Positions 41,081 to 45,131 of a stretch of 47,579 nucleotides of DNA are shown one piece after another. The position numbers and the translations under genes were made by a program. This DNA is from Aneurinibacillus sp. (GTDB lineage Bacteria; Bacillota; UBA5301; DYFA01), in NCBI GenBank assembly GCA_020725425.1, contig DYFA01000043.1, positions 1-47,579 on the forward strand, given 5' to 3'. Position 1 is the first letter of the stretch. Each line of letters begins with the position of its first letter. The notes beneath the pieces were generated by a model. It had not been told where the DNA came from and did no database searches. It saw only the letters and a list, made by a program, of their open reading frames with translations.

Positions 41081-42256
41081 ATGACGAAGACTGCGCTCAT
41101 CGGGAGCGGGCGGGCCGGCGCCGGTCGGGCCTCCGGTGCGCTGGCGGCCCTGCTCGCCCTCTCCCTGGCGGTTCCCGCCGCCGCAGGCGGGCTTGACCTG
41201 GGTCTGCCCGCGGTCAGCGGCTACCTTGAAGAATCTCTGGCCGGCCAGGCCACCGCCGAGCAGAACATCTACTACCTTCTCAGCCACCTGCGCCTGAGGG
41301 TGGACTTCCCGGAGCAGGAGGGACTCTCCGCCCGGGGTGAATTCGACCTCTACGGCCTCGGCACCCAGCCGTTCTCTCTGTCGGTTTCGGGCGGCAACCG
41401 GGTCAACATCCCTGCCACCAGCACCGCGGCCGCCGTCGACCGTCTCTACTTCCGCCTGGCCGGCGGCGACACCCAGGCGACCATCGGGCGGCAGCGGATC
41501 CCCTGGGGCAACGGGACCGCCTTCGCCCCGGCCGACTTCTTCAACCCGCCCAACCCGGTGGACCCTAAAGGGCCGCGCCAGGGTGCCGACGGCGTCATGG
41601 TCCGCCGGGCCCTCGGCCCGCTGGGCTACGTCGCCGCGGCGGCCGCCTACGTCAACCCCGGCGCCGCCTCCCTCCCCGGGATGGCCTCCGCGTTGCTCAC
41701 CGCCGGGGGCTCCGGCTCTTCGGCGGGCGGGCTCAGCGGGAGCGTGAAGGCCGCCACCCACCTCGGCCAAACCGACCTGGGGCTGGGGTGGGGCTACGAC
41801 GCCGCCAACGCCCGCCACGTCGCCTTCGCCGAAGCCCAGGGCGACCTGGGTGTAGGGTGGCATGCCGCCCTCGCCCGCCTCTGGAGCGACGCTGACGGGG
41901 AGAAGTGGTCCGGCGCCGCCGGCGTGGACTACAGCTTCGGCGGGAAATACGTGGGAATGCTCGAGTATGCCGCCGGACCGCTGCCAGGTGACGTCGGTCT
42001 CGACGGCCAGCCCCGGGAGAACCCCCGCTGGGCGGTGGGCGCCAACTACCTTGCGAGCGAGGTGGCTAGCCTGGGGGCGCACGTCCTGCTCGACACGGCC
42101 CCTGGGGCCCCCTCCACGGCGGTCGTCACCTTTACCCAGACCTTGACGAGCGCCCTCGACCTCTCCCTCCGTCTCGCCTATCCGTTCGGGGAGGCGTCGG
42201 GAGCCGCCGCGCTCTGGGGGGGCGCTGGCGAGGTGAAAGTGCGTTACAGCTTCTGA
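41081..42256 (+). CDS. Outer-membrane beta-barrel protein, DUF1302-like
   Basis: This 391-aa exported protein has a signal sequence (ALLALSLAVPAAAGG). The mature chain alternates short polar and aromatic strands and ends VKVRYSF, a C-terminal Phe as in outer-membrane barrels recognised by BamA. The block ATIGRQRIPWGNGTAFAPADFFNPPNPVDPKGPRQGADGVMV resembles DUF1302 proteins. A GAGGAGG Shine-Dalgarno is present. Being last in an operon with a LolA-like protein and an ABC exporter, it may be the outer-membrane end of the route. Its stop overlaps the convergent kinase gene by 13 bases. Confidence 0.82.
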   Translation: MTKTALIGSGRAGAGRASGALAALLALSLAVPAAAGGLDLGLPAVSGYLEESLAGQATAEQNIYYLLSHLRLRVDFPEQEGLSARGEFDLYGLGTQPFSLSVSGGNRVNIPATSTAAAVDRLYFRLAGGDTQATIGRQRIPWGNGTAFAPADFFNPPNPVDPKGPRQGADGVMVRRALGPLGYVAAAAAYVNPGAASLPGMASALLTAGGSGSSAGGLSGSVKAATHLGQTDLGLGWGYDAANARHVAFAEAQGDLGVGWHAALARLWSDADGEKWSGAAGVDYSFGGKYVGMLEYAAGPLPGDVGLDGQPRENPRWAVGANYLASEVASLGAHVLLDTAPGAPSTAVVTFTQTLTSALDLSLRLAYPFGEASGAAALWGGAGEVKVRYSF

Positions 42257-43737
42257 ACCATCCTGGACGGGGTGCGGCCGGAGCGCTTGTTGTTGTCGCC
42301 GGCCGCGGGGACCAAGGGGAAGGAGATGTGGAAGGCGGTGCCCTGGCCGACCTTGCTCTCGACCCAGATCCGCCCCGAAAGCAGCTCCACCAGGCGGGAA
42401 GTGATGTAGAGGCCCAGGCCGAGCCCGGAAACGCCGGAGGCGGCTGCTTTCCGGGACCGGTAGAACTTCTCGAAGATCATCGGGAGTTCTTCCTCCGGGA
42501 TACCGCTGCCGTAGTCGATGACCGAGACCACCGCCCGCCCTTTGGCCGTGGAGAGCTTCACCACCACCGGGCTCGTCGGCGGCGAGTACTTGAGGGCGTT
42601 GGAGATGAGGTTCACCAGGATCTGGTGGTAGGCTATGCGGTCCAGGTAGCAGAAGAGCGGGCCGGTGGCCTCCTCGAGATCCAACACCACCCGGGCGTAA
42701 TCCGGCGCGGCGGACAGGAGTCCTACCTCCGCCACGGTCAATTCGTACAGGTCGTGTTCCGTGGCGTTGACCGGAAGCCGGCCGGCGTCGAGGCGGGCGA
42801 TCTGCAGCATCTGATCGAGCAGGCCGGTCATCTGGTCGACCTCAGCCATGATGCGCGGCAGGACCAAGGCAGGCGATTCCTCTTCGCTCTTGCCTTTGCT
42901 TTCCTGCCGGGTTTTGAGGTCAGGAAGCTGCGCCAGGGCCGTCGCCCGCCTGCCCTTGCCGGGGGTAAGGCCAAGCTCCGCATAGGCCCGGATGACCGCC
43001 AACGGGGTCCGCAACTCGTGGGAGGCGGTGAAGAGGAATTCATCTTTGACTTGTTCAAGGCGCTTGATCGTGGAGATATCCCGGAGGAGGGTGACCGACC
43101 CGGTGATCTCCTTGGTCCCCGTATCCCGGATTGGCGAGGCGCTCACCAGGTAGAAGATTTCCTGTCCCTCCTTCCGGAAGACGATCGTCTCGTTCTCGAC
43201 CGCTTCCCCGGCCAGCGCCCGCTCGTGGGGGAAACCGCCTTTGGCCAGGGGAGTGCCGTCTTCGCGGAAAAACAAGGGGGTTCCGTCCTCCCGGCGCATC
43301 GCCTCCAGGCTGTGGCCCCGCCACTCCCGCCAGAGCCCCTCCTCGAAAGCCCGGTTGACCCGGACGAGGCGGCCATCCCTGTTGGTGACGTACAAAAGCG
43401 AGGTGATGTTTTCCAGGATCGTCTCCAACTCCGACACCAGGTCAGCCGCCGCACGCTGGGCTTCGATGAGCTTGGCGTTTTGCTCGGCCAACGCTTTGTT
43501 GGCCCGGCTTAGCATAAGAGCAAGCACGCCAATACCAATCGCCATGGGCGCGGTCATTATGATTTGAGCCATGATGGTGATGGGCACGCTGCGTAGCATA
43601 CTGGTCTCAAGTAGACTAACGACTATCATCCAGAGTATGGCGAGAACCACTCCCAAGGAAAGACGGCCACGCCAAGTCGCCTGACGGGACATGGGCAAAC
43701 TATTCTCTTGGTTATGGATCGATGGTTGGGTCGTCAT
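42244..43737 (-). CDS. Sensor histidine kinase with PAS domain, in agr operon
   Basis: This 497-aa kinase has two N-terminal transmembrane segments (about 27-49 and 53-76), a coiled segment, a PAS domain (about 103-222, LYVTNRDGRLVRVNRAFEE), the HisKA domain with phospho-acceptor His240 (FTASHELRTPLAVIRAY), N-box NLISNALKYSPP, G1 DYGSGIPEEEL and G2 GLGLGLY. About 40 extra polar residues separate the two HisKA helices (LTPGKGRRATALAQLP to EEESPAL). It is not an AgrC/HPK10-type kinase. The ATG overlaps the stop of the membrane-protein gene by four bases, so the two are coupled. No response regulator gene is adjacent. Confidence 0.92.
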   Translation of the reverse strand: MTTQPSIHNQENSLPMSRQATWRGRLSLGVVLAILWMIVVSLLETSMLRSVPITIMAQIIMTAPMAIGIGVLALMLSRANKALAEQNAKLIEAQRAAADLVSELETILENITSLLYVTNRDGRLVRVNRAFEEGLWREWRGHSLEAMRREDGTPLFFREDGTPLAKGGFPHERALAGEAVENETIVFRKEGQEIFYLVSASPIRDTGTKEITGSVTLLRDISTIKRLEQVKDEFLFTASHELRTPLAVIRAYAELGLTPGKGRRATALAQLPDLKTRQESKGKSEEESPALVLPRIMAEVDQMTGLLDQMLQIARLDAGRLPVNATEHDLYELTVAEVGLLSAAPDYARVVLDLEEATGPLFCYLDRIAYHQILVNLISNALKYSPPTSPVVVKLSTAKGRAVVSVIDYGSGIPEEELPMIFEKFYRSRKAAASGVSGLGLGLYITSRLVELLSGRIWVESKVGQGTAFHISFPLVPAAGDNNKRSGRTPSRMVQKL

Positions 43738-44237
43738 TTCTTAATACTAGTCTGGTCGCTCGGCGTTCTTGGCCACGCTTCAGGGGCACTAATCAGCTTA
43801 AATCGGAATAAACCGATCAAGCCGGCAACCAGAATCAAAATGGATGCAGAAAGGTAGCCCCCAAAGAGATAGCCCGGTAAAGATTGGACCAAGTCAGACA
43901 CAGCCATCCGCCTCGCCGTGAGCACAGGGGCAAGGACCAAAGCATGCCCCATGGACAAAAGGAAATTGGTGATGGTCGCGGCAGTGATAGCCGTCTGAAC
44001 TGATACTCGGAAGAACAACATGGTGATGAGCACGTACGCGATGAAAAGGACTAGAGTGTGAAAGCCGAAGGGAAAGGGCAATAGACGTGCCAACGGAACG
44101 GATATGGCAAAGACAAATACAGCCCGCCAGAACTGTCGGGATGGGGGCCGTAGACCTAACAGTCGGGTTCCGCAGTACATCATCAAGACTGCCTCTGGTA
44201 TTTGATAAAGCAACCACGGGAGAACTATCTGCTTCAC
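43734..44237 (-). CDS. Five-helix membrane protein in agr operon, possible separate receptor
   Basis: About 167 aa, mostly hydrophobic, with five predicted transmembrane segments: about 4-28, 38-55, 60-78, 84-106 and 122-146. A short basic and polar tail ends SDQTSIKK. I recognise no family motif. Size and helix number resemble the detached N-terminal sensor part of AgrC-type receptors. The GTG at 44237 was chosen because GGGGTGG lies six bases upstream; a TTG at 44243 is in frame. It lies 54 bases after agrD and overlaps the kinase gene. A role as pheromone receptor passing the signal to the kinase is inference. Confidence 0.75.
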   Translation of the reverse strand: MKQIVLPWLLYQIPEAVLMMYCGTRLLGLRPPSRQFWRAVFVFAISVPLARLLPFPFGFHTLVLFIAYVLITMLFFRVSVQTAITAATITNFLLSMGHALVLAPVLTARRMAVSDLVQSLPGYLFGGYLSASILILVAGLIGLFRFKLISAPEAWPRTPSDQTSIKK

Positions 44238-44291
44238 TCGCAACCACCCCGCCTGCAGCGACCAAGATAGGCCCCGGGAAGAGCCTTCGGC

Positions 44292-44414
44292 CTACTTAAT
44301 CAGCGACTTGGGAACCTCCGGTTGATAGCCGAAGAGCCAGCACGCGGAGGCGACGCCACTCGCGACCAACGTGGTCAGCATTGCCATTATGGCGATACCA
44401 ATCAGCTTCTTCAC
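44292..44414 (-). CDS. agrD: AgrD-like cyclic lactone autoinducer precursor
   Basis: This is a 40-residue peptide with the three parts of AgrD: an amphipathic and hydrophobic leader (VKKLIGIAIMAMLTTLVAS), a core with a single cysteine (SACWLFGY), and an acidic proline-rich tail (QPEVPKSLIK). Aligned with known AgrD peptides, the thiolactone ring would be Cys-Trp-Leu-Phe-Gly, cut before YQPEVPKSL. The GTG start at 44414 has GGGGAGGG six bases upstream. The gene follows agrB by 20 bases. It is too short for most gene finders unless a longer, wrong start is taken. Confidence 0.9.
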   Translation of the reverse strand: MKKLIGIAIMAMLTTLVASGVASACWLFGYQPEVPKSLIK

Positions 44415-44434
44415 CGATAACCCTCCCCTTTTTT

Positions 44435-45052
44435 CTAAGTCTTTCGAGGTGCGCCCAGCGCTCGGTTGACCAGGTGGTAGAACCGCGCTCCTCCCGGGGT
44501 CAAAGTCCCAACTTGCCAAATGAGGCCAAGAGCACTAGCAGCAACCAAGCTGGACCCTCCTCGGTAAAGCACACATCCCATGATGATTACCCAGCCGGCC
44601 AACGCAACCCAGGACACCCTCCTGAGCTTAGCTTTCTGAGGCGGAGAAATAGGCTTAGCAGGCGAATCCACCGGAGCGTACCTGTGAATGGTTACGCCCG
44701 CAAGTCCAGCCACTACCAGAACGATCCCCATAAGCCAAAAGGGCACTATGTCGGTCAGAGCAGCCGCCAAAGAACCTAAGCCTGCCGCAATTACAGCAGA
44801 GGCGATTGCACATGTCCAGGGATCACTGAAATGGGCGCCACCAGTAAGGGAGCGGAAAACGGCAGAAGTTAGGGCCACTACCAGGGTCAAGCCAAAGGCA
44901 CCAACCAGAATTCCGGCTAGAACTACAGTCAGGGTGTCGATGACGAAAAGTAGAATATAAGTAACCCCAAACGCCAGCAGATCCCGGCGCTCTTCTGAAA
45001 AGCCAAAATACCTGATCATCCGGTCAGTGAGGGCCTTGGCTACGACCTCCAT
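44435..45052 (-). CDS. agrB: AgrB-like peptide-processing membrane protease
   Basis: This 205-aa integral membrane cysteine protease removes the AgrD tail and forms the thiolactone. The catalytic pair has the AgrB spacing: His74 in LTGGAHFSD and Cys81, seven residues later (PWTCAIAS). Five or six hydrophobic segments follow the short N-terminal amphipathic region (ALTDRMIRYFGFSEERRDLLAFGVTYI), which matches AgrB. It is the first gene of the agr operon. The DNA here is visibly less GC-rich than its neighbours, which may mean horizontal acquisition. Confidence 0.93.
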   Translation of the reverse strand: MEVVAKALTDRMIRYFGFSEERRDLLAFGVTYILLFVIDTLTVVLAGILVGAFGLTLVVALTSAVFRSLTGGAHFSDPWTCAIASAVIAAGLGSLAAALTDIVPFWLMGIVLVVAGLAGVTIHRYAPVDSPAKPISPPQKAKLRRVSWVALAGWVIIMGCVLYRGGSSLVAASALGLIWQVGTLTPGGARFYHLVNRALGAPRKT

Positions 45053-45131
45053 GTAGGCTCATCCTGCCTGCCATATTGTTCCTGACACTTACTCCTTCGG
45101 TGGAATTTGTCACATTCCTGCCGCACAACCC

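Follow-up and report, generated by a model that had tools for sequence, protein, structure and literature searches.

The four-gene operon on the minus strand at positions 45052–42244 of Aneurinibacillus sp. contig DYFA01000043.1 is best explained, with good though not complete confidence, as an Agr pheromone system whose receptor is split between two proteins. The genes, found in the 47,579-nucleotide stretch analysed here (the window), run agrB, agrD, memP and kinase, where memP is a stand-alone membrane protein and the kinase a two-helix PAS/HisKA protein. An earlier note on this DNA had read the layout as a division of pheromone sensing and phosphotransfer between two coupled proteins, and the homology of memP, its fusion and fission with kinases, and its co-occurrence with agrBD all support that reading.

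The agrB gene (44435–45052, minus strand) encodes a 205-residue AIP-processing membrane peptidase (PF04647, 111 bits against a cut-off of 23) and is the only AgrB copy in the genome. It is followed by agrD (44292–44414, minus strand), which starts at a GTG codon with GGAGG upstream and encodes a 40-residue pheromone precursor, MKKLIGIAIMAMLTTLVASGVASACWLFGYQPEVPKSLIK (TIGR04223, 41 bits against a cut-off of 19). The third gene, memP (43734–44243, minus strand), is the proposed pheromone receptor subunit, a 169-residue protein that AlphaFold2 models as five helices (pLDDT 92.5); its start is a TTG, and an alternative GTG two codons in (44237) has better ribosome-site spacing. The proposed output subunit, the kinase (42244–43737, minus strand), consists of 497 residues with two hydrophobic segments (~res. 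27–45 and 60–78) and a PAS_4/PAS_9-HisKA-HATPase_c architecture (PF08448/PF13426, PF00512, PF02518). Gaps of ~20 and 48 bases separate agrB from agrD and agrD from memP, and the start codon of the kinase shares an ATGA with the stop codon of memP. No response regulator gene adjoins the operon in the window. The earlier note had made the same gene calls, including the five-helix protein, the overlap and the missing regulator, and they are confirmed. A 0A-box-like sequence, TTTGTCACA, lies ~54 bases upstream of agrB on the plus strand (45106–45114), with one mismatch to TTTGTCRAA. Its position is suggestive, but we set it aside as evidence for Spo0A because matches of this kind are not above chance across the whole window (94 versus 86 expected).

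Neither Pfam nor NCBIfam contains a match to memP, and PDB fold and sequence searches returned nothing significant, with no membrane-domain structure matched. Among viral folds, one phage protein matched at a probability of 1.00 and a TM-score of 0.62, but with an E-value of 0.083, and we take it as a hint only. A single-sequence search of the window memP against the genome contigs found no relatives, and profile searches were needed. In 41 related genomes there are 13 matches besides the window's own copy, nearly all adjoining agrB or agrD, and three of them constitute the N-terminus of a larger GHKL kinase. An alignment of these first relatives served as the profile for 399 sampled genomes of the phylum, where the family is present in 150, AgrB in 165 and both in 140 (odds ratio ~125). 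Judged by these profile matches, memP is a member of an undescribed family, one member of which matches SpoIIGA weakly (E = 0.001). The near-invariant residues of the family, Pro16, Glu17, Arg53, Gly60 and His62, are all present in the window protein.

We annotated the neighborhoods of 105 memP copies with local profile models; the sample consists of top-scoring matches, which leaves weaker members of the family under-represented. For 96 of the 105, a same-strand agrB or agrD is no more than 2.5 kb away. Stand-alone proteins account for 86 copies, and the nearest same-strand output gene to these encodes a GHKL kinase in 47 cases, a GGDEF and/or HD-GYP protein in 21 and a HisKA kinase in 14, including the window, with none seen in four. 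Two or three memP genes stand in tandem upstream of agrB in L120, L096, L110, L114 and L156–L162, except L158, which has one. Such tandem genes could encode heteromeric receptors. Tandem copies or two candidate outputs in L120, L162 and L166 mean that pairing is not always one to one.

The remaining 19 copies are N-terminal fusions of memP to a GHKL kinase. Among solved structures, these fusions match the kinase module of Staphylococcus aureus AgrC best (6e52, E = 1.3e-21), in a match that covers the kinase part alone. A model of the separate GHKL partner kinases (39 sequences, 287 positions) aligns with each of the 19 fusions over almost its whole length, from position 3–11 to position 280–285, starting just past the memP part. 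Exactly two N-terminal helices are found in 39 of 41 separate GHKL partner kinases, and the fused proteins mostly display a 5+2 helix pattern. A predicted one-piece relative likewise has the five helices of memP followed by two more, in a model of moderate quality (pLDDT 72.5, pTM 0.43) that served for helix positions alone. Because the partner-kinase model is collinear with the fused remainder and includes the two helices, a separate memP together with a two-helix GHKL kinase corresponds to an AgrC divided after its fifth helix, before the sixth. Rather than coming from an unrelated family, as the earlier note had allowed, memP is on this collinearity a homologue of helices 1–5 of one-piece AgrC-type kinases. 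The same note had described canonical AgrC as a six-helix sensor fused to a kinase; the one-piece sensor-kinase form stands, but the helix count does not hold in the memP family, where the one-piece receptor has 5+2 helices and the split therefore falls between helices 5 and 6.

Fusion or fission accounts for seven changes on the memP tree, at least four of them forced by supported branches, and on this tree the event is a repeated one in evolution. At L021 (6510–8053), an insertion-sequence transposase sits between memP and the GHKL kinase, and at L058 the kinase is in two pieces. By these counts split receptors are common across the phylum, and the window is thus one variant among many.

The gene order of the window recurs in its closest relative, genome G006 of the same class, where agrD is followed by memP and then by a PAS/HisKA kinase, while part of an AgrB stands at the end of the contig. 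The G006 kinase, an orthologue of the window kinase, occupies the same position and is 32% identical to it, and the recurrence argues that the order is beyond chance. Both the window kinase (res. 231–319) and its G006 relative at L015 (res. 218–303) carry an insertion of ~20–25 residues in the HisKA hairpin. On a quick memP tree, in which the window row is a long branch, the window protein falls within a nine-row clade with a support of 95. The loci of this clade share the order agrB-agrD-memP-output, and the occupant of the last slot changes: a GHKL kinase in L022, L130, L132 and L135, a HisKA kinase in the window and L015, a GGDEF/HD-GYP protein in L126 and none shown in L018.

This clade bears on whether the two proteins work together. 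The memP protein might be a receptor while the HisKA kinase answers its own PAS signal, with memP modulating it weakly or signaling to another membrane protein, and the operon simply co-expressing two sensors. The HisKA kinases of other memP loci are indeed very diverse, several having extracytoplasmic loops of their own (L105, L106, L125 and L134), and memP stands beside agrBD with no output seen at L018, L097 and L110. We nonetheless consider two independent sensors unlikely. The reading frames of memP and the kinase overlap, and G006 retains the pair; a membrane signaling enzyme follows memP in every locus of the window's clade but L018; and partner class clusters strongly on the memP tree, requiring 16 changes versus 46 in shuffles. 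Within the favored split receptor, the PAS domain of the window kinase could still sense something else.

The predicted pheromone offers a second view of memP. From the AgrD motif, the AIP ring would be C-W-L-F-G (44328–44342, minus strand), followed by a YQPEVP recognition tail. A Cys or Ser plus four residues precedes [YFHW]xPxxP in 100 of 111 AgrD matches around the relatives; L130 and L132 have a Thr at the ring-closing site where Cys or Ser is expected. Four loci of the window's clade have a predicted CxxFG ring, namely CWLFG, CLFFG, CAIFG and CFLFG, paired with HisKA, HisKA, GHKL and GGDEF outputs, respectively, and the exceptions in the clade are L018 (CLYVY) and L135 (CTFSL). Since the CxxFG ring is shared across three output types, the peptide in those four loci follows memP and not the output enzyme. 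In Mantel tests, which still contain shared ancestry, memP identity correlates with ring identity over 74 loci with an r of 0.39, falling to 0.10 when AgrB is controlled and to 0.32 when output class is controlled. After thinning to 49 loci, the corresponding values are 0.25, 0.13 and 0.21, and the partial correlations were reached in none of 2000 permutations. The earlier note had proposed a test for coevolution of memP with agrD types; memP does co-occur with agrBD and tracks the ring even where the output enzyme differs, with kinship retained in the statistic. The ring-closing residue also follows output class, being Cys in 29 of 32 HisKA and GGDEF rows and Ser in 40 of 52 GHKL and fused rows.

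The ring correlates slightly more closely with AgrB than with memP. Together with the near-constant adjacency of memP to agrB, this could be taken to mean that memP is an accessory factor of AgrB in AIP processing, export or immunity, and no receptor. We regard this as very improbable, because 19 memPs are covalently joined to a GHKL kinase in the place of the AgrC sensor, three of them with neither agrB nor agrD within 2.5 kb, and because 25 of the 165 AgrB genomes have no memP match, so that AgrB does not require memP.

The target of the split receptor was sought in a regulator census, made by family searches of the genome (assembly 97% complete). No GHKL (HATPase_c_5) kinase was found by this search, and both LytTR regulators adjoin kinases of their own; an ordinary agrC/agrA pair elsewhere in the genome, which would have weakened the case, is thus not found there. 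Among the 15 receiver domains, all DNA-binding regulators of the PhoB/OmpR (2/2), NarL (3/3) and LytTR (2/2) types adjoin a kinase. The only two DNA-binding regulators without a neighboring kinase are Spo0A paralogues at L144 and L150 (PF08769, 98 and 114 bits), one of which adjoins a SpoIVB-like gene. A LytTR regulator is near none of the 14 HisKA-type memP loci versus 15 of 19 fused loci. Clostridial orphan kinases act on Spo0A (PMC11210211). By elimination, Spo0A is the likeliest target of the window kinase, an assignment to which we give just short of an even chance.

The receptor may also be split as proposed and yet signal to something other than Spo0A: a REC-only protein, a LytTR regulator reached by cross-talk, or a phosphorelay. 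Orphan REC-only proteins are present in the genome (L152), and phosphotransfer proteins can take part in clostridial sporulation (PMC11210211); against this, the only DNA-binding regulators that lack a neighboring kinase are the two Spo0A proteins. We rate a different output as a serious possibility, somewhat below even.

In the mechanism that we favor, AgrB would process AgrD into a five-residue cyclic peptide, probably the CWLFG thiolactone. The memP protein, as the equivalent of AgrC helices 1–5, would bind this peptide in the cytoplasmic membrane and signal by touching the helix pair of the neighboring PAS/HisKA kinase. The kinase would replace AgrC helices 6–7 and the GHKL kinase, a role assigned by position and not by helix homology. 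It would then phosphorylate an unlinked regulator, most likely one of the two orphan Spo0A proteins, which may link cell density to sporulation or to stationary-phase entry.

The profile and neighborhood data also support a wider finding, that the sensor half of AgrC is detachable and is used with at least three output classes. A bolder form, to which we give slightly less than an even chance, is that AgrC helices 1–5 constitute a free-standing, exchangeable receptor subunit throughout the phylum, plugged into GHKL/LytTR pathways, into HisKA kinases feeding Spo0A, and into GGDEF/HD-GYP proteins setting c-di-GMP. If so, one peptide language would serve three output pathways, and the window would hold a direct route from an Agr pheromone to sporulation control. 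Some Firmicutes, C. difficile with its agr1 locus among them, have agrBD with no recognizable adjacent receptor (PMC3901668). In the same species the AgrD1 peptide promotes early sporulation, by a route that PMC11210211 describes as unknown. Detachable receptors of this family are a concrete candidate beside, or away from, such receptor-less loci, and the HisKA variant suggests a wiring to Spo0A that can be tested. Loci L019, L020, L024, L070, L096, L099, L108, L111, L119, L123, L124, L126 and L127 combine agrB/agrD and memP with a membrane GGDEF/HD-GYP protein, suggesting Agr-to-c-di-GMP signaling; this variant would tie cyclic-peptide quorum sensing directly to c-di-GMP. We found neither a split AgrC nor agr operons containing GGDEF/HD-GYP genes described in the literature searched (open-licence papers).

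A beta-barrel-like protein is encoded beside the agr operon (41081–42256), and the genome also encodes an Omp85 protein (L154, 163.7 bits). From its gene content the organism appears to be diderm, with Spo0A as well, in which case a cyclic Agr peptide would need to cross the outer membrane.

Compared with the canonical agrBDCA system of S. aureus, the window shares AgrB and an AgrD with a Cys ring and a P-x-x-P tail (CWLFG-YQPEVP). The memP family equals the first five helices of the one-piece AgrC-type kinases of the phylum, and the kinase part of these proteins has S. aureus AgrC as its best match. Unlike the one-piece GHKL/HPK10 AgrC of S. aureus, however, the window receptor occupies two genes and its kinase is of the PAS/HisKA type, with no linked LytTR AgrA; the two LytTR regulators of the genome lie elsewhere, beside other kinases. 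A separate membrane sensor that controls a membrane-bound kinase is also known from UhpB/UhpC, where the ligand is a sugar phosphate; the two-protein arrangement is the same, but the families are unrelated and UhpC is no pheromone receptor.

A free-standing memP accompanied by agrBD and an orphan HisKA kinase, as in the window, is found in Desulfosporosinus (nitroreducens, metallidurans, fructosivorans and HMP52) and Paradesulfitobacterium. In these genomes, unlike the window, memP lies ahead of agrB and is often doubled, and the kinase has ~600 residues; in those related loci that were read, the HisKA kinase has an extracytoplasmic loop. Candidatus Dichloromethanomonas and Gracilibacter have both an upstream HisKA kinase and a downstream GGDEF/HD-GYP protein. 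Next to agrB and agrD, phages Davies, Emery and Abouo encode one or two membrane proteins, described in 2014 as possible AgrC homologues without an ATPase domain (PMC3901668), a paper in which the split receptor was not recognized. The two Davies proteins, gp44 and gp45, score 35.9 and 25.4 bits against the memP model but differ from the window protein in their length of ~220 residues and in having no neighboring output enzyme. Finally, as with the clostridial orphan Spo0A kinases (PMC11210211), the HisKA kinase of the window lacks a dedicated regulator, and its genome contains orphan Spo0A. Unlike those kinases, it belongs to a pheromone operon that also supplies a putative membrane receptor subunit, and its action on Spo0A is proposed here.
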